From: Longimicrobiales bacterium
GTDB lineage: Bacteria > Gemmatimonadota > Gemmatimonadetes > Longimicrobiales > RSA9
NCBI GenBank assembly: GCA_035461765.1
Contig: DATHUY010000018.1
Span: 1-58,056, forward strand
Reading direction: 5' to 3'
DNA length: 58,056 nucleotides
Under the pieces are notes generated by a model. It was not told the DNA's origin. It saw only the letters and a program-made list of their open reading frames with translations, and did no database searches. Position numbers and translations under genes: made by a program. Numbering within the stretch: the first letter of the stretch is position 1; the number at the start of each line of letters is the position of its first letter. Of this stretch, positions 9,483 through 57,193 are shown piece after piece.

Positions 9483-11000
9483 ATGAATTCACGCCGTGTG
9501 ATCGGCGTGTCCGTGCTTGCCATCTGGGTGTTGATGGTGGCGTGGCACGCACGTCGGGAGTACTGGGTGCCGGAGGCGCAGCGGCTGGCGACGGGCGCGC
9601 AGATGCTGGCGCCGGGGACGCACTGGTTCCTGATCAGCATGGGTGACGTGCCGATCGGCATCGCGCAGTCGCGGCTGGACACAATACCCGGGGGCTACGT
9701 CTTCAATGACGAGATGACGATGGACGTGCCCGCGCTCGGCCAGGTCCACCGCGCGACGGCCCGTACCCAGATCGATCTGGGTCCCGCGCTGGAGCTGCAG
9801 GGCTTCGACTTCTCGCTCGACTCTCGGATCGGCGAGTTCCGGGTGAGCGGCCGGTCCGAGGGCGACAGCGCACTCGCGGTGACCATGGATGCGGGCAGCG
9901 GCCCGCAGGAGTCACGCATGCCGCTCGGCCAGGGCCTGCTGCTGGACGCCGCGCTGTCCCTCCGCATGGCCGCGTCCGGTGCACTGCGCGAGGGCAACGA
10001 ATTCACCGCGCGCATCTTCGATCCGTCGTCGATGTCGGAGCGCGATGTCGTGGTGAGCGTCGGCGCGCGCGAGACCATTGTCGTCACGGACAGCGCACGG
10101 CTGGAGAACGGCCGGTGGGTCGCGAACCTGCTCGATACCGTGCCGGTCTTCCGTGTCGACCAGAAGTTCGGCGGTGTGAGCATCTCGAACTGGATCGACG
10201 AGGACGGTCAGATCGTGCGTGCGGAGAGTCCGCTCGGTTTCACGATCGAGCGGATGTACTACGAGCTGGCGCGGCAGGCGTGGCAGGGCGGCGGGTCGGA
10301 AGCGCTGGCGCAGGGATACGGCGCGCTGATCGAGGGCACGGCGATCTCGGCGAACGTGGACGTCACGGACGTCGCCACCCGGCCGCGGCTGAGGGTGCGG
10401 CTGGGCGGTGTGGACCTGGAGGGGTTCGACCTGCAGGGCGGGCGCCAGACGCTGCTCGGCGACACGCTCGTCGTTACGCGCGAGGCGCTGGCGCAGACGT
10501 GGTTCCGTCTGCCGTATCGCGGCAGCGGCAACATGGACGAGGAGCTGGAGGCGACGCCGCTGATTCAGGCGGACGATCCGCGCATCGTGGAGACCGCGCG
10601 TCGGATCGCGGACGGTGCCACGGATCCGATCGTGGTCGCGCAGCGTCTGAACGACTGGGTGTATCGGGAGCTGGACAAGGACGTGACGCTCAGCGTGCCG
10701 AGCGCACTCCAGGTGCTCGATGCGCGGAGCGGCGACTGCAACGAGCACACGGTGCTGTATGTCGCGCTCGCGCGCGCGGTCGGCCTGCCTACGCGCACAG
10801 CAGTCGGGCTCGTGCACATCAACGATAGCTTCTACTACCACGCCTGGCCGGAAGTGTGGCTCGGCGAGTGGGTAGCGGTGGACCCGACGCTCGGCCAGTT
10901 CCCGGCCGACGCGAGCCATCTCCGGTTCCTGATCGGCGGGCTCGCACGCCAGGTGGAGCTGATCCGCCTGATCGGACGACTCCAGCTCGAGGTGATATGA
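9483..11000 (+). CDS. Membrane-anchored transglutaminase-like (cysteine protease fold) protein
   Basis: A 505-aa protein with an N-terminal hydrophobic anchor (VIGVSVLAIWVLMVAWHA). A long beta-rich region follows, then a C-terminal transglutaminase-like core. The catalytic Cys is in ARSGDCNEHTVLY, the His in SFYYHAWPEVW and the Asp in VAVDPTLG, a complete triad. A Shine-Dalgarno AGGAAG precedes the ATG. The stop overlaps the ATG of the ABC ATPase (ATGA), so it is translationally coupled to the exporter. Substrate unknown; periplasmic location inferred. Confidence 0.8.
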   Translation: MNSRRVIGVSVLAIWVLMVAWHARREYWVPEAQRLATGAQMLAPGTHWFLISMGDVPIGIAQSRLDTIPGGYVFNDEMTMDVPALGQVHRATARTQIDLGPALELQGFDFSLDSRIGEFRVSGRSEGDSALAVTMDAGSGPQESRMPLGQGLLLDAALSLRMAASGALREGNEFTARIFDPSSMSERDVVVSVGARETIVVTDSARLENGRWVANLLDTVPVFRVDQKFGGVSISNWIDEDGQIVRAESPLGFTIERMYYELARQAWQGGGSEALAQGYGALIEGTAISANVDVTDVATRPRLRVRLGGVDLEGFDLQGGRQTLLGDTLVVTREALAQTWFRLPYRGSGNMDEELEATPLIQADDPRIVETARRIADGATDPIVVAQRLNDWVYRELDKDVTLSVPSALQVLDARSGDCNEHTVLYVALARAVGLPTRTAVGLVHINDSFYYHAWPEVWLGEWVAVDPTLGQFPADASHLRFLIGGLARQVELIRLIGRLQLEVI

Positions 11001-11767
11001 TCCGTCTCGAAGGCGTAACCAAGCGGTACGGCCGGTTCACGGCTGTACAGCCGCTCGACCTGGAGGTGGGTGCGGGGGAGCTGTTCGGCTTCCTCGGGCC
11101 GAACGGTGCCGGGAAGACCACGACCATCCGCATGGTGACGGGCGTGCTGCGCCCCACCGAAGGCCGCGTATTCATCGCGGGACACGACATGCTGACGGAC
11201 CCGGTGAGCGCCAAGCGCCACATCGGCTACATACCGGATCGGCCGTCGCTCTACGAGAAGCTCACGGGCTCGGAGTTCCTGCGCTTCGTGAGCGGACTGT
11301 GGGGGCGGGACGGTGCGGCGGCGGAGCAGCGCGCGGGAGAGCTGCTGGAGCTGTTCGAGCTGACTGCATGGCGCGACACGCTGGTGGAGAGCTACAGCCA
11401 CGGCATGAGGCAGAAGCTGCTGATCGCGTCGGCGCTCGTGCACTCACCCGATGTCATCATCGTCGATGAGCCGATGGTCGGTCTCGACCCGAAGGCCGCG
11501 CGCATGATCAAGGACCTGCTGCGCATCTTCGTCGATCAGGGCGGTACTGTGTTCCTGTCGACGCACACGCTCGAGGTTGCGGAAGCGCTGTGCGACCGCA
11601 TTGCCATCCTGCACCAGGGCGCCATACGCGCGAGCGGCACCATGCAGGAGCTCCGCGCCGAGGCCGCCGCGGGCGCGGCAGGCCTGGAGGAGGTGTTCCT
11701 CAAGCTCACGGGCAGTGAGAACGTGAAGGAGATCGTTACATCCCTGCGCGCTTCGGGGGCAGCGTGA
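10997..11767 (+). CDS. ABC transporter ATP-binding protein
   Basis: A 256-aa ABC-2-type ATPase starting at ATG 10997, which overlaps the upstream stop. Walker A is GPNGAGKTT, the signature loop is the degenerate YSHGMRQK, Walker B ends in VIIVDEP and the switch His is in STHTLEVAE. It should energise the membrane protein encoded from about 11931. Coupling to a transglutaminase-like gene resembles bacterial loci that process or export peptides or envelope components, but the cargo is not evident. Confidence 0.9.
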   Translation: MIRLEGVTKRYGRFTAVQPLDLEVGAGELFGFLGPNGAGKTTTIRMVTGVLRPTEGRVFIAGHDMLTDPVSAKRHIGYIPDRPSLYEKLTGSEFLRFVSGLWGRDGAAAEQRAGELLELFELTAWRDTLVESYSHGMRQKLLIASALVHSPDVIIVDEPMVGLDPKAARMIKDLLRIFVDQGGTVFLSTHTLEVAEALCDRIAILHQGAIRASGTMQELRAEAAAGAAGLEEVFLKLTGSENVKEIVTSLRASGAA

Positions 11768-11777
11768 GCGGAACGAA

Positions 11778-11890
11778 CCCGGGAGCGGGATCGGGATCGA
11801 TTTCGAGAGCGGGATCGGGAACTGCGGGTGGGGCAGGGGCAGGGCAGGGGTGAGCCCGCTCCCGCGAGCCGCACACGCTCCCGCTCCCGG
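11778..11890. repeat. Inverted-repeat element, GGGAGCGGGATCGGGA family (copy 2)
   Basis: CCGGGAGCGGGATCGGGA starts at about 11779 and a second GAGCGGGATCGGGAA follows near 11806. Inverted counterparts GAGCCCGCTCCCGCGAGC and GCTCCCGCTCCCGG lie at about 11852-11890. It fills the gap between the ABC ATPase and the membrane protein and resembles the element at 151-239. Confidence 0.45.
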
Positions 11891-11930
11891 ATCCGTTGCC
11901 TTGCGCCAGCCCTCGGTTCTGGACCTCCTC

Positions 11931-13607
11931 ATGCCGAAGTGGCGCTCGGCGCAGCGGCGGCTGGCGAGCGAGAGCAGCGCGGTGCGCGTCATCGTGATGG
12001 GATTCGTCGCGTTCATCTTCTTCGCGATCGTGTTCGCGATCATCTACCGCGTGCTCGGGCATTTCCGCGCGCAGCCCGGTATCGGGGATCTGCTTGCGGG
12101 CAAGCTGCTCGGCATGATCCTGCTCGCCTTTCTGTCGATCCTGCTGCTGTCGAACATCATCACGTCGCTGTCATCGTTCTTCCTGGCGCGCGACCTGGAG
12201 CTGCTGTCCGCGGCGCCCGTGGACGGCCTGCGGGTCTACACCGCACGCTTCATCGAGACGCTCACGAACTCGTCGTGGATGATGCTGATCGTCCTGATGC
12301 CGATCCTGCTCGCGTTCGGCGTCGCATACGGCATCACCCTCCAGTTCGTGCTGACTACGATCATTGCGCTCGCCAGCTTCCTGATACTTCCCGCTGTGGC
12401 CGGTACCGCGATCACGCAGGTGCTGGTCAACGTGTTCCCGGCGCGCCGCGCACGTGACATCCTCGCGCTGATCGCGCTGCTGGGCGCGGCCGGGCTCGTC
12501 ATGCTGTTCCGGCTGCTGCGCCCCGAGCAGCTCGCGCGACCGGAGGGCTTTCGCGACCTCGTCGACTTCATTGCGGCGCTCCAGACGCCGCAGTCCGTCT
12601 GGCTGCCGAGTGAATGGACCGCGCAGTCGATCCTGGCGTCGCTCGGGGCCGGCGAGAACGTGGCCGATCCGTTCCCGCTGATGCTCCTCGTCTCCACTGC
12701 CGCTGCGTTCTTCGTGCTGGGCACGTGGGTGCACGGCCGTCTGTATCGCGACGGCCTGAGCCGTTCGCAGGAGGGAGCGGAGCTGCAGGACGGGGAGGGT
12801 GCGAAGCAGCGCCGCCGTCTGGAGCACATGATGAGCGCGGTACCGGTGACGGCGCGCAGCCTGGTGGCGAAGGACATTCGCACCTTCTTCCGCGACACGA
12901 CGCAGTGGTCGCAGCTGATCCTGCTGGCCGTACTGGTGGTGGTCTATGTCTACAACATCAAGGTGCTGCCGCTCTTCTCGGGTGAGGAGGTCGGTTTCTT
13001 TCTGATCAACGTCGTGTCATTCCTGAACCTCGGCCTGGCGGGTTTCGTGCTCGCCGCCATTGCGGCGCGCTTCCTGTTCCCCGCGATCAGCCTGGAAGGG
13101 CGCACGCTGTGGCTGCTGCGCTCCTCTCCGCTCGACCTGCGCTCCCTGCTGTGGAGCAAGTTCTGGGTGGGCATCACGCCGTTGCTCGTGCTGGCTCTCG
13201 CGCTGACGATCGGTACAAACATCATCCTGCGCATCGACGGGTTCATGATGGTGCTCTCCGTCATCACGATCGTCGTGATGACGTTCGCGATCGCGGCCAT
13301 GGCGCTGGGGTTCGGCGCACTGTTCCCGAAGTTCGACACGGAGAACCCGGCCGAGATACCCACCAGCTTCGGCGGTCTGCTGTTCATGATGACGGCCACG
13401 GCGTATCTCGGCATCATCATCGCGCTGCAGGCATGGCCGGTCTACTCGATTCTGCGCGCGCGGCAGGAGGGCGCCATCGGACTGCCAGAAGCGGGCATGA
13501 CGCTCTGGCTGGTCACGAGCCTCGGTCTTGCGATCGTCATCTCGGCGGTGGCGATCATCGTGCCTCTGCGCGTGGCCGCGCAGCGCATCGAGGTGCTGGA
13601 CCGCTGA
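11931..13607 (+). CDS. ABC exporter membrane subunit
   Basis: A protein of about 558 aa from ATG 11931. In-frame TTG 11901 and GTG 11850 are upstream alternatives, but the latter lies in repeat sequence. About ten to twelve hydrophobic segments are visible, for example GFVAFIFFAIVFAIIYRV, ILLLSNIITSL and VSFLNLGLAGFVLAAIA. The conserved EGRTLWLLRSSPLDLRSLLW loop is typical of large ABC permeases with cytoplasmic elbow loops. It follows its ATPase directly. Substrate unknown. Confidence 0.8.
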   Translation: MPKWRSAQRRLASESSAVRVIVMGFVAFIFFAIVFAIIYRVLGHFRAQPGIGDLLAGKLLGMILLAFLSILLLSNIITSLSSFFLARDLELLSAAPVDGLRVYTARFIETLTNSSWMMLIVLMPILLAFGVAYGITLQFVLTTIIALASFLILPAVAGTAITQVLVNVFPARRARDILALIALLGAAGLVMLFRLLRPEQLARPEGFRDLVDFIAALQTPQSVWLPSEWTAQSILASLGAGENVADPFPLMLLVSTAAAFFVLGTWVHGRLYRDGLSRSQEGAELQDGEGAKQRRRLEHMMSAVPVTARSLVAKDIRTFFRDTTQWSQLILLAVLVVVYVYNIKVLPLFSGEEVGFFLINVVSFLNLGLAGFVLAAIAARFLFPAISLEGRTLWLLRSSPLDLRSLLWSKFWVGITPLLVLALALTIGTNIILRIDGFMMVLSVITIVVMTFAIAAMALGFGALFPKFDTENPAEIPTSFGGLLFMMTATAYLGIIIALQAWPVYSILRARQEGAIGLPEAGMTLWLVTSLGLAIVISAVAIIVPLRVAAQRIEVLDR

Positions 13608-51799: not shown

Positions 51800-51863
51800 T
51801 CGCATCTGGACGGTGGGGCACGGGCGAGCAGGCAGGGGCAGGGAAGACTGCTTTTTGACAAAT

Positions 51864-52225
51864 CGGGAAGTGAGTGTGGATCGCGGGCGTCGTGAGGCGC
51901 TCGAGGAAAGTCCGAGCTCCACAGGGCAGGGTGCCGGCTAACGGCCGGGCGTCGCGAGGCGATGGAAAGTGCAGCAGAGAAGAGACCGCCGATGGCCGTC
52001 GCGAGATGGCACAGGCAAGGGTGAAACGGCGGTGTAAGAGACCACCGCGCCCCTGGTAACAGCGGGCGGCAAGGTAAACCCCACCCGGAGCAAGGCCAAG
52101 CAGGGACGAGGCGCTGCCCGCGCCGTCGGAGTCCCGGGTAGGCTGCTGGAGGCGGCGGGCAACCGTCGTCCAAGAGAAATGATCCGCCTCCGCAAGGAGA
52201 CAGAACTCGGCTTATTCACTTCCCG
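51864..52225 (+). ncRNA. rnpB: RNase P RNA (bacterial type A)
   Basis: Catalytic RNA that matures tRNA 5' ends. The ends pair as P1: CGGGAAGTGA (51864-51873) with TCACTTCCCG (52216-52225). Conserved core blocks are present: GAGGAAAGTCCGAGCTCC, ACAGGGCAGGGTGCCGGC, GAAAGTGCAGCAGAGAAG, GGGTGAAACGGCGGTG and the 3' ACAGAACTCGGCTTATTC. It sits between two tRNA-Arg genes. Confidence 0.97.
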
Positions 52226-52262
52226 TATCTTCTGTGTCGTGCAGCATGCGATGCAGAGACAG

Positions 52263-52336
52263 GCGCCCGTAGCTCAGCTGGATAGAGCGCATCCCTCCGG
52301 AGGATGAGGCCAGTGGTTCGAATCCACTCGGGCGCA
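52263..52336 (+). tRNA. tRNA-Arg(CCG), insertion site of the downstream island
   Basis: A 74-nt cloverleaf with acceptor GCGCCCG/CGGGCGC, anticodon loop CTCCGGA (anticodon CCG) and T-arm GGTTCGAATCC. Its last 43 bp (52294-52336) recur exactly at 57151-57193. Confidence 0.97.
52294..52336 (+). repeat. att direct repeat, left copy (in tRNA-Arg)
   Basis: A 43-bp block from the anticodon loop to the discriminator base of tRNA-Arg(CCG), beginning CCTCCGGAGG. It is identical to 57151-57193. The start in the anticodon stem-loop matches a common tyrosine-recombinase crossover position. Confidence 0.85.
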
Positions 52337-52350
52337 CTCTGATCGAACCG

Positions 52351-52565: not shown

Positions 52566-53813
52566 GTGGATCCCGCATGGGGTGCATCCACCCGCGCCGT
52601 GTGGGGCGGCGAGGACGGTGCCGCACCGCACGGCGCGACCGTCCCGCCAGTGTACCACCGCGTCACCTTCGCGTACCAGGACCTCGACGAGTGGCAGGAT
52701 GTCGGCGCCGGCCAGCGCGCCGGCCACATCTATTCGCGCAACACGAACCCGACCACCGTGACGTTCGAGGCGAAGATGTGCGCGCTCGAGGGCGCCGCCG
52801 CGGCGACCAGCTTCGCCACCGTCATGGCGGCCATCAGCAACGCGCTGTTCGCATTGCTCGCACCAGGCCAGCGCGTGGTGTCCATTCGCCGTAGGGCGGA
52901 ACCAACCGCATCTTCATCGAATATCTGCCGAAGTACGGCGTCGATGTCGCCCTCCGCGACACCGGCGACACGGCAGCGATCGAACGCGAGATGGCGCGTG
53001 GCTGCGATCTACTCTACCTCGAGACGCCGACAAACCCGACGCTGAACGTACTCGACATCGCGCGGCTCGCTGCTCGCGCGCGCGCTGTCGGCGCGACGAC
53101 GGTCATCGACAACACGTTTGCCACCCCGATCAACCAGCGCCCGCTCGAGTGGGGCGCCGATCTCGTCGTGTACAGTGCCACGAAGTATCTCGGTGGCCAC
53201 TCCGATGCCATGAGCCGCGTCCTCTGCGGCGACACCGACCGCGCGCACGGTCTTCCAGTTCCGCGAGATCAACGGTCGGTCGCTCGACGCCATGTCCGCG
53301 TTCCTGCTGACGCGCGGGCTGAAGACGCTCGAGCTGCGTCTGCTGCGGCAGAACGACAATGCGCTGCGGATCGGTCGGTACCTCGATGTGCTCCCGCTCG
53401 TCGAGCAGGGTCTTCTACCCGGGGCTCGAGAACCATCCGCAGCACGACGTGGCACGGCGGGAGATGCAGGGGCTTGGCGGTGTGCTCAGCTTCTCGCTGA
53501 AGGGCGGCTTCGATGCGGTGCGTATGCTGCTTGCCACGCTGCGCCTCGCGCACAGCGCGGCGAGCCTCGGCTCCGTGGGTACGCTCGTCGGGCCGCCGAG
53601 CGTGACGAGCCACGTCGAGCTGACACCGGCGCAGCGTGCGGCGGCGGGCATTCCGGAGTCGCTTGTGCGCTACGCGGTCGCATCGAGAGCGCGCCCGACC
53701 TCATCGCCGACTTCGAGCACGCGCTGAGCGCAGCGCACACACACCTGCTTACCGCGCAAGGCCGGCACGTGGAGGCGGAGCCGATGATGCAGGAGTCGGG
53801 CTCCGAGCAGTAA
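52566..53813 (+). pseudogene. Trans-sulfuration PLP enzyme (cystathionine gamma-synthase/lyase family), frameshifted
   Basis: Readable pieces of one PLP-dependent Cys/Met metabolism enzyme lie in changing frames. The pieces in order: WGASTRAVWGGEDGA and HIYSRNTNPTTVTFEAKM; then ETPTNPTLNVLDIARLA and the PLP-Lys motif VVYSATKYLGGHSD; then GRSLDAMSAFLLTRGLKTLE; then YPGLENHPQHDVARREMQGL through GPPSVTSHVELT; then APDLIADFEHALSA to a TAA at 53811. At least four frameshifts interrupt it, so it is almost surely inactive unless the sequence has errors here. The start is uncertain (GTG 52566 or ATG 52550). An adjacent intron fragment suggests accumulated damage. Confidence 0.8.
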
Positions 53814-54204
53814 GGGCGTGCGGCGTAGACACCGCCCGCATCCGGCAGGCAACCGGTGAGCAACGCCTGAACGGTGGCCTCGGTGCCGCAGAGCTCTACG
53901 GCCGCGAACGTGATGCGCATCGCAGGTACCCTCCGCAGACTCGGCCGACACGCACCCCATGAACAAGTCGAGGCCAGGCATGGCCCCCCATCCGCGCGTT
54001 TTGCGTTTCATGCGGTGGAGGCGGACGTCCGGTCCCGCGTTTCGCCTCTGCGGTGAGCGGCGGGCTGTCGGTCCCTCGCCGGTCAGTGATCGAGGACGCA
54101 GCCCACCCTCACTGGCAAGCGCGTGAGCTCAGCACGCCCACGAATTTGGGCGCGGCAATGTGCGCCCGTCCAGCGGGCATCCCAATCCCGAGGAGGTGTA
54201 TTCG
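53814..54204. other. Island spacer without a recognisable gene
   Basis: About 390 bp between the pseudogene and the two-gene unit. No frame on either strand resembles a known protein. A small hairpin CGCCCA/TGGGCG lies at 54135-54152 and an AGGAGGT ribosome-binding site near the right end serves the next gene. Confidence 0.5.
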
Positions 54205-54816
54205 ATGGAACCGATCTCTGTTACCGGCGAGGTCGTTGACTCCGCCACTCGGCAAGGCATTCCCGGGCTTCGAGTCGAAGCATGGGAGAAAGACGGTGCG
54301 CCCAGCGCGTTGGTGGGGAACGCAACCACTGATCGCGTGGGTCGCTTCGTGATCAATGTCGAGGAAGCGCAACTAGCGGCACGGCGAGCGGCGCTGTTCT
54401 TCAGGATCTTGCGAGGCGCCGAGCTAATCACGAGTACAGAGGACACGGTCGTCTGGACTCCAGGATCGTCCACCGAGCCAGTGCGCGTGGAAGTAACCCT
54501 CAATCCGCAGCCCGAACCACCCTCGTGGACGACTCTGCATGTGAATTCATTCGACGAGCTGATTGCGCATGAACAGGAGATCCTGGGCAGAATTGCCGCA
54601 ACGCCCAACGGAGGTAAGCTGTTCCTGACACACCCATTCATGCTCCTCGCCGACCTCGGCGTCGAGTTATCGAAACGGGCGGAGCGCGAGCTCATCGCTC
54701 ATGAGCCGGTCCTCGGCGCCCTCTCCCCTGTCTCATACAACCATCTGAAGGCAAGCACCCGGCCGCAAAGTGTGAAGGTCAACCTCCGCGGCCTTTTCCA
54801 GAGGAGGGCGCAGTGA
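54205..54816 (+). CDS. Transthyretin-like-domain protein of unknown function (island cargo)
   Basis: A 203-aa protein from ATG 54205 with a perfect AGGAGGT 7 nt upstream. The first 95 residues form a prealbumin/carboxypeptidase-regulatory-like sandwich: ISVTGEVVDSATRQGIPGLR and TTDRVGRFVINVEE. The second half is helical: FDELIAHEQEILGRIAAT, then FLTHPFMLLADLGVELSKRA. No signal peptide. It overlaps the next gene by 4 nt and clearly works with it. Base composition differs from the flanking chromosome. Function unknown. Confidence 0.75.
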   Translation: MEPISVTGEVVDSATRQGIPGLRVEAWEKDGAPSALVGNATTDRVGRFVINVEEAQLAARRAALFFRILRGAELITSTEDTVVWTPGSSTEPVRVEVTLNPQPEPPSWTTLHVNSFDELIAHEQEILGRIAATPNGGKLFLTHPFMLLADLGVELSKRAERELIAHEPVLGALSPVSYNHLKASTRPQSVKVNLRGLFQRRAQ

Positions 54817-56780
54817 GTCTGACAGCCGGTTTCGACCTGGTGATCGAACTATCGAACGAGGCCGTTCTGAACCTCGTCAAACGCAACATGCAAATTCCCG
54901 GCGCCGTCGCCAATCCGCCTTTTGAGATTGCCGTCCCATTCGCGCAGCCCGCGCAAGGACAAGCATGGCTCATCGTGGACGACATCACACTCGAGCTGAA
55001 GGACAACGATGAACTGGTGTTCACGCTGCCGTTCAGTTGTGGTGCAGTCGAACTGCAAACCCCGATTCCGCTGGACGTCACGGGACTCCATGGAACGATC
55101 ACGCTGACGATGTCTGCCCAGGGAGTGCTCATTTCCAAAGGGGGTAGCTCGTTCACATTCGGTGTCAATTGGGACGACGCCGTTTCAAATATCGCCATAA
55201 ATCAGCTCGCAGCTGCGCTGGCCGGGACACCAATCGACGCCGCCACGTTCCAGAGCCTGGCACAACAAGCCCTCGCCGACTTCGTCAACGGGCTGCCTGC
55301 CATCACGACGTCCATCGAGTTCCAGATCGTGCCTGCCCAGGACGGCGCGTTCGGCAACAACCTGCAGTTCGCTGCAGCGGAGGTTCACTGCATCGGCAAT
55401 GCGGACCCCGCCAAACAGGCGTTGGGTCTGTTCGGAACACTGGTCGCCGCCAATCAGGGCAACGGCGATCACACGTTGAAAACGGAGACCGCCATTCAGC
55501 CGGGTCGGGAGCTCGCCATCAGCATGTCGCCGGGCGCGTTCCGCCGGATCATCTTTTGTCCCGCGCTAGCGGCATCGTTGGGGACAAAACTGCCGAGCAC
55601 TTGTGGGAATACACCCGTGCACCGGAATGGCCTCGATATCACAAAAATCGAGGAGTCCTTCCACCACAACGGGATCAAGATCAGCATGACCGCCAAGCGG
55701 TCAGGGGTGTGCTACGAAGCCAGGGGTGACGTATCCGGCACGCTCACGTTTTCGATCGCAAACAATGCGCTGGTGCCGGATTTGGACGTCGGAAAACCCG
55801 ATGTGACCGTCGACATTCCGTGGTACTGCAAGATCGCAGCTGCCGTTGTAGGCGGCGTATGGGGATTGGTCATCGCGCAGGTACTCGATGAAGTGCTGGA
55901 TGTCATTCTCGATTTCTTCGCGCCGGACGTGCCCGGAGTGTCTGTGCCGACGGTCGCACTCGCCGGGTTTCCCGGTGCGGTATTCACGGATGTGCAAGTC
56001 TCCCCGGAGGGGCTGACGCTGCAAGCCGATCTTCCGATCATACTGTCGAAGAATAAGAGTACGCTCAAATTGAGCGGAGCTGTTACCGTTATCAACATCG
56101 AAACCTTGAGTACCGGCACGTATAAGGTCGAGGAGGGCTGCCTCGCGGGCGAATATCCGTGGACAGAGCAGTTGCTCCATCTGTCGGCTGGGTACGTCGC
56201 AACTCCGACCCTGTTGTGCAGGCCAATCGAGTACACGTGGTCGATTGAAAATATTCAGCTGCCTTCAGGCCACGGCCAGGTCACGGTGCCCGTCGAAGCC
56301 ACCCATCCTTTCCCTCTGACGGTCGGCACGACGGTAACGGCTGACGTCGACGTCGAGTATACGATCTCGGCGGCATCCATTGTGTTGAAAAATGCTCCGA
56401 GCCAGGGCAGCTATGCGGTGAAGCTTGGCATGCGCGCCAAAGACGCGAAAGGCACGGTTCTTCAGACGAGCCAGCATGTATTCTTCGCAGGACATGCAGT
56501 GCAAATCGAGGGGTTCGCCGGGAAACTGGCATACTGCTCCGCGGAGCAGTTCCGTAAGAAGGTCGTTCCCACCAAGTGGCCAGACTTCGAGGAGCCGAGT
56601 CCGAAGGACCTCATCGTGATCACGCTCCTACACTCGAGTCTGGAGCATCCCGACTCGGATCAGCTGGTCGCCGCGACCGAGCTGACCTACGGTCAACGTT
56701 ATCAGAAGGCCATCAACCTACATCGAGCAGGTCTGTTGGGTTCTCGCTCCCGTCTCGGTGCCACCGCCCAAGGTGCTTAG
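54813..56780 (+). CDS. Large beta-rich protein of unknown function, possibly TULIP-like (island cargo)
   Basis: A 655-aa protein from GTG 54813, coupled to the upstream gene. There is no signal peptide. It opens with FDLVIELSNEAVLNLVKRNM, a strand-plus-helix pattern seen in TULIP/P47-type lipid-binding folds. Similar alternating strands recur around residues 300-345, with a hydrophobic helix (AAAVVGGVWGLVIAQVLDEV) after them and then VSVPTVALAGFPGAVFTDVQ. The C-terminal third is again beta-sandwich, ending in a helical LVAATELTYGQRYQKAINLH. At least six Cys are scattered. Assignment to TULIP is tentative; no catalytic motif is visible. Confidence 0.65.
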   Translation: MSLTAGFDLVIELSNEAVLNLVKRNMQIPGAVANPPFEIAVPFAQPAQGQAWLIVDDITLELKDNDELVFTLPFSCGAVELQTPIPLDVTGLHGTITLTMSAQGVLISKGGSSFTFGVNWDDAVSNIAINQLAAALAGTPIDAATFQSLAQQALADFVNGLPAITTSIEFQIVPAQDGAFGNNLQFAAAEVHCIGNADPAKQALGLFGTLVAANQGNGDHTLKTETAIQPGRELAISMSPGAFRRIIFCPALAASLGTKLPSTCGNTPVHRNGLDITKIEESFHHNGIKISMTAKRSGVCYEARGDVSGTLTFSIANNALVPDLDVGKPDVTVDIPWYCKIAAAVVGGVWGLVIAQVLDEVLDVILDFFAPDVPGVSVPTVALAGFPGAVFTDVQVSPEGLTLQADLPIILSKNKSTLKLSGAVTVINIETLSTGTYKVEEGCLAGEYPWTEQLLHLSAGYVATPTLLCRPIEYTWSIENIQLPSGHGQVTVPVEATHPFPLTVGTTVTADVDVEYTISAASIVLKNAPSQGSYAVKLGMRAKDAKGTVLQTSQHVFFAGHAVQIEGFAGKLAYCSAEQFRKKVVPTKWPDFEEPSPKDLIVITLLHSSLEHPDSDQLVAATELTYGQRYQKAINLHRAGLLGSRSRLGATAQGA

Positions 56781-57150: not shown

Positions 57151-57193
57151 CCTCCGGAGGATGAGGCCAGTGGTTCGAATCCACTCGGGCGCA
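57151..57193 (+). repeat. att direct repeat, right copy (tRNA-Arg 3' remnant)
   Basis: Exact 43-bp copy of 52294-52336 with no acceptor 5' half or D-arm before it, so it is not a functional tRNA. It is followed by a strong terminator that probably belonged to the tRNA before integration. Confidence 0.85.

Follow-up and report, generated by a model that had tools for sequence, protein, structure and literature searches.

The stretch of DNA analysed here (58,056 nucleotides, hereafter the window) contains two adjacent genes that a first-pass annotation had described as an intact, coupled pair, encoding a transthyretin-like protein and a large protein of possible TULIP or P47/OrfX type. Do these genes form a genuine unit, how did they come to lie in this genome (a 4.68 Mb assembly that is 99% complete), and what might their products do? 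The gene content (PD40 proteins, a BTAD-type regulator) and the composition of the phylum sample point to Gemmatimonadota as the host. The features on which the answers rest are collected in Table 1.

Table 1. Features of the gene pair and its surroundings, in window coordinates.
Feature	Position	Strand	Description or basis
tRNA-Arg(CCG)	52263..52337	+	its 3' 43 nt (52294-52336) form the left attachment repeat
Decayed Cys/Met metabolism PLP enzyme gene	52566..53813	+	inside the island; ORFs, Pfam
Ribosome-binding site AGGAGG, small gene	54191..54196	+	sequence
Small gene	54205..54816	+	203 aa; TTR-like domain and conserved 100-aa C-terminal extension
TTR-like domain (aa 5-99)	54217..54501	+	homologous to N-terminal domain of TcA subunit and of Cyanothece lipoxygenase 5EK8
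Small-protein C-terminal extension (aa 101-203)	54505..54813	+	50% identical to L050
Ribosome-binding site AGGAGG, large gene	54802..54807	+	inside the small gene; sequence
Large gene	54813..56780	+	655 aa, GTG start; matches no described family
Conserved hydrophobic helix region (aa 339-368)	55827..55916	+	at IPWYCxIA motif; hydrophobicity, L050 comparison
C-terminal module (aa 446-552)	56148..56468	+	shared with P0003, 28% identity, E 1e-4
Right attachment repeat	57151..57193	+	perfect copy (43/43 nt) of the tRNA-Arg(CCG) 3' end

Recurrence and coding character of the pair

In agreement with the earlier description, both open reading frames are intact, overlap by 4 nt (GTGA) and are each preceded by an AGGAGG sequence. 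A motif scan for the TTR domain in 85,000 species yielded 40 loci (L030 to L069), one of which, L050 in a Methylococcales MAG, has full-length counterparts of both genes, arranged as in the window and likewise overlapping by 4 nt. Of their products, the small one (209 aa) is 43% identical to the small protein of the window, and the large one (733 aa, L050:10600-12801) is 35% identical to the large protein. When the two pairs were compared, divergence at codon positions 1, 2 and 3 was 0.47, 0.32 and 0.71 for the small gene, and 0.52, 0.39 and 0.71 for the large gene. Thus, position 2 is the least and position 3 the most divergent, which indicates that both frames are under purifying selection at the protein level, as had been proposed. 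Together with the conserved order and overlap in L050, this pattern shows that the two reading frames are more than chance frames. The L050 pair is followed by genes for a GH13-like enzyme and for a protein combining DUF2278 and LTD.

Relatives of the large protein were searched for widely. None was found in 61 relatives of the organism, in 395 genomes of its phylum apart from one partial match (L003, see below), by scanning 85,000 species for exact peptides, or in phages, plasmids and viral contigs. Two weak tblastn matches (L005 and L006) were rejected, being located in or across unrelated genes. Likewise, a phage or plasmid origin was rejected, as viral contigs and phage and plasmid records gave no match to the pair; a single plasmid match covered no more than 45 aa within the TTR domain. 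The motif scan yielded no third copy of the pair. Such a copy was found neither in 251 genomes of the Methylococcales order nor in 215 of its class, and none was detected in 228 genomes of the phylum of genome G407, a search that lacked a positive control. Two members, those of the window and of L050, are therefore known from these searches. Together, the recurrence in L050, the codon-position pattern and the failure of any search to find a third copy demonstrate that the gene pair is a real, rare and uncharacterised two-gene unit.

The tRNA-Arg insertion site

The pair is located between the 3' part of a tRNA-Arg(CCG) gene and a displaced copy of that part at the distal boundary, the arrangement of a tRNA-targeted genomic island. 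The GC content over the pair is 58-60%, against 65-68% across most of the flank, and GC3 of the two genes is 0.70-0.71, whereas the other window genes tested, with one exception, have values of 0.81-0.89. The repeats derived from the tRNA end, the low GC content and the shifted GC3 show that the pair is cargo of foreign origin, preserved intact on a tRNA-targeted insert of ~4.9 kb beside a decayed gene. The sole other recognisable gene between the two repeats encodes a PLP enzyme of Cys/Met metabolism, whose PF01053 pieces are located in different frames (52991-53500 and 53292-53813); this bears out the earlier remark that the island gene next to the pair has decayed. An integrase was also looked for inside the island, and none was seen between the repeats in the ORF listing or by Pfam analysis of the main ORFs. 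Whether the pair generally travels in islands received a divided answer: it lies on a tRNA-bounded insert here, whereas in the genome harbouring L050 its composition is the same as that of its flanks and the locus contains no tRNA.

Islands of this kind have been catalogued in Islander (PMC4383910). The present one resembles them in its foreign composition and in the displaced tRNA 3' end at its far boundary, and differs in having no integrase and several tandem repeat copies. The tRNA-Arg(CCG) 3' end recurs at a distance of ~3.76 kb on contig C80 (L087, G000:C80, 4106-4151), which probably continues the window since its end overlaps the last bases of the window exactly over 141 nt. This second interval between repeats contains genes for a PD40 protein and for a BTAD-like regulator, the latter named by eye. 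A genome of the same genus (G001) contains two repeat copies, at C209:7497-7539 and C309:6800-6842. As judged from these sequences, the tRNA-Arg(CCG) end seems to have served repeatedly as an insertion point for small inserts without a local integrase. A class A RNase P RNA (51863-52230) is located between two tRNA-Arg genes. The window also contains, ~5 kb from the pair, a gene for a Zn-dependent phospholipase C-like protein (PF00882, 47940-48974); at locus L055 a protein resembling it, by eye only, is encoded at 10866-12689, after the TTR gene.

The position on an island and the patchy distribution would suit a role in anti-phage defence, which had been suggested before. This suggestion found no backing: neither protein matched a PADLOC model at E values up to 1, and no nuclease, NTPase or sensor domain was recognised. 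We consider a defence function very improbable.

The small protein and other proteins with a TTR-like head

The AlphaFold2 model of the small protein has a mean pLDDT of 72, with blocks over aa 1-100 mostly at 66-94 and strands E4-E97. Foldseek returned the Cyanothece lipoxygenase 5EK8 as best match, and also transthyretin and the TTR domains of carboxypeptidase D, with a probability of 1.00. In agreement with this, 5EK8 was the best PDB profile match (E 1.8e-5), and the match lies within its N-terminal domain. The prediction thus gives a TTR-type beta sandwich within aa 1-100, corresponding to the domain at aa 5-99. The domain scored below the curated Pfam cut-off (PF13620, 20.2 bits against 32.3; TTR-52 was also below). 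In addition, it shares 40-47% of its residues with the N-terminal domains of two TcA-type starts; this homology and the Foldseek matches uphold the description of the small protein as transthyretin-like.

One of these relatives is a TcA-type Tc toxin subunit (L026, genome G023), in which a TTR/CarboxypepD_reg-like domain of ~100 aa, 47% identical to that of the small protein, likewise occupies the very N-terminus without a signal peptide. In L026 a TcA chain of 2,392 aa, which includes ABC_toxin_N and neuraminidase-like domains, is fused to it, and the adjoining genes carry TcA_TcB_BD and RHS repeats. In the window, by contrast, it forms part of a small protein (203 aa) that has an extension of its own, and the genes neighbouring the pair in the window include no TcA gene and no RHS-type TcB/TcC genes. 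A candidate that looked TULIP-like next to the L026 Tc locus was rejected as a homologue on the basis of phmmer and hhalign comparisons. In the Cyanothece 9R-lipoxygenase (5EK8), the beta domain that gave both the best profile match and the best fold match is fused to the lipoxygenase, and we know of no partner gene.

Across the 40 loci the TTR domain is located at or near the N-terminus, nearly always within ~25 residues of it, although a few starts are uncertain, and a crude hydrophobicity test generally revealed no Sec-like stretch in front of it. Pfam analysis of 26 TTR-bearing proteins identified multicopper oxidases (5), galactose-oxidase types (4), a class 3 lipase and a DyP peroxidase. 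Seven long hosts (L032, L034, L038, L039, L044, L058 and L060; 2,500-3,400 aa) resemble TcA only in their size and in the layout of their operons. Two operons, in a Williamsia MAG (L051, 1659-13206) and in an uncultured Aquimarina (L065, 1519-13186), are alike in layout and, with names taken from the Pfam and NCBIfam matches of L051, encode a baseplate protein, a Gp48-like protein, a DUF6519 protein, a TTR coiled-coil protein and a glycosyltransferase/methyltransferase; the baseplate gene of L051, which lies beside the TTR gene, is of type TIGR02243. The 'RVEAWDKD' TTR-like domain heads very different proteins, apparently in place of a signal peptide. It might, more generally, be a portable module that marks proteins of many phyla for a shared non-Sec route of release or assembly, and the pair would then present this head in trans on a wholly new class of payload; we regard this wider proposal as rather unlikely.

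As relatives of the domain begin a TcA subunit and adjoin a baseplate gene, the pair might be cargo, or an effector or adaptor, of an injection machine in the cell, either a Tc complex or an extracellular contractile injection system. The genome harbouring L050 (G402) has a TIGR02243 baseplate gene on another contig. The window's own genome lacks TIGR02243, in a search that was positive in other genomes, and gave no TcA_TcB_BD match, in a search that had no positive control; moreover, many of the proteins with a TTR domain are ordinary exoenzymes. It is unlikely here that the pair is carried by an injection machine of its own genome, and the proposal as a whole seems to us quite unlikely. Through the TTR domain, a toxin-accessory or export link is a live lead. 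Fusion of the domain to oxidases, a lipoxygenase and a peroxidase would also be compatible with an enzyme or a structural complex that serves the host cell, for instance in redox or envelope functions, in which the TTR domain would act only as an oligomerisation module. Set against the lack of any recognised catalytic family in the large protein, this is an unlikely explanation, though one of appreciable weight.

Nowhere is the pair better conserved than in the C-terminal extension of the small protein, with 50% identity between the window and L050, against 36% for the TTR domain. Among the loci compared, this extension was detected in the two pairs alone.

The large protein and a possible split exoprotein

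No match to the large protein was found in Pfam (up to E 10), NCBIfam, PHROGs or PADLOC, and its L050 homologue had none in Pfam. Comparison with PDB sequences, using single sequences and a two-row profile, gave as sole match a papain-like protease that is not significant (E 0.29). No signal peptide was evident. Seven of its nine cysteines are conserved in L050, and conservation falls to 18% over the last 95 aa. An AlphaFold2 model computed from the two sequences (mean pLDDT 33, pTM 0.21) is too poor to judge the fold, so structure prediction, which was informative for the small protein, was uninformative for the large one. The only credible partial relative is L003, and there only the C-terminal ~100 aa recur: P0003 (L003/L028, G181:C8), a protein of 636 aa encoded in another genome of the class, contains this module after a metallopeptidase-like region with weak similarity to M11, in which the motif QELGHAYGFEH is of the HExxH type with the first His lost. 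Judging from this recurrence, the large protein may well have a C-terminal part that forms a module separable from the rest. The large half of the pair is thus new, and the small half belongs to a recognisable and widely used family of TTR-like heads.

The large protein had been likened to TULIP or P47/OrfX-type proteins. If it were a TULIP-type lipid-binding protein, the pair could be a distant analogue of the P47/OrfX toxin-accessory proteins, an idea to which the strand/helix pattern proposed earlier and the conserved hydrophobic helix lend some support. Clusters of orfX-p47 genes adjoin many toxin genes, including ABC and RHS types, and their products bind lipids (PMC7020563); TULIP families can, furthermore, be too divergent for sequence searches (PMC6791001). 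Pfam does include P47 and other TULIP families, and yet no Pfam model, PDB sequence or profile showed similarity; no toxin gene was recognised beside the pair in either genome. When aa 1-215 were aligned with aa 216-440 by hhalign, the score (14.3) was below that of at least 15 of 100 column shuffles and hence revealed no internal duplication, although a structural repeat could escape such a sequence comparison. The likeness proposed for the large protein gained no support from these analyses, and we judge the TULIP explanation unlikely without being negligible. The earlier statement that the pair corresponds to no nameable system does stand, since none was matched.

The explanation we favour, tentatively and as a possibility short of probable, is that the pair constitutes a two-component exoprotein carried as cargo by the small tRNA-Arg-targeted island. 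The small subunit would be a stand-alone version of the TTR-like head that is elsewhere fused to a payload, as in the TcA subunit, the oxidases and the lipase. Given that the domain opens the payload chain in those proteins and is part of a separate, translationally coupled protein here, a head acting in trans is the simplest reading. We infer that the two proteins form a physical complex in which the extension would serve as the adaptor binding the large protein; its higher conservation relative to the TTR domain is in keeping with such a partner-binding surface. Made in step with the large protein, the small one may stabilise it, keep it soluble or ensure its correct assembly, and would confer on it the location or release route that other payloads owe to their fused heads. 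The large subunit would be the payload, beta-rich and cysteine-rich and released by a non-Sec route. Its conserved cysteines and hydrophobic central helix suggest that it would act most likely at a membrane or lipid surface. Three observations count against this explanation: a cytoplasmic protein would lack a signal peptide just as well, conserved cysteines may serve to bind metal in the cytoplasm, and the large protein is barely conserved over its last 95 aa.

With two known members and an uninformative model of the large protein (pLDDT 33) as its limits, the pair is a strong lead. The results define a new, testable two-gene unit that is conserved across distant bacteria. Its small subunit ties the pair to a TTR-like head common to a Tc toxin subunit, exo-oxidases and contractile-injection loci. 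The proteins that have this head are alike in seeming to have no classical signal peptide, and the separable head of the pair is thereby a convenient object for studying the role of the domain.
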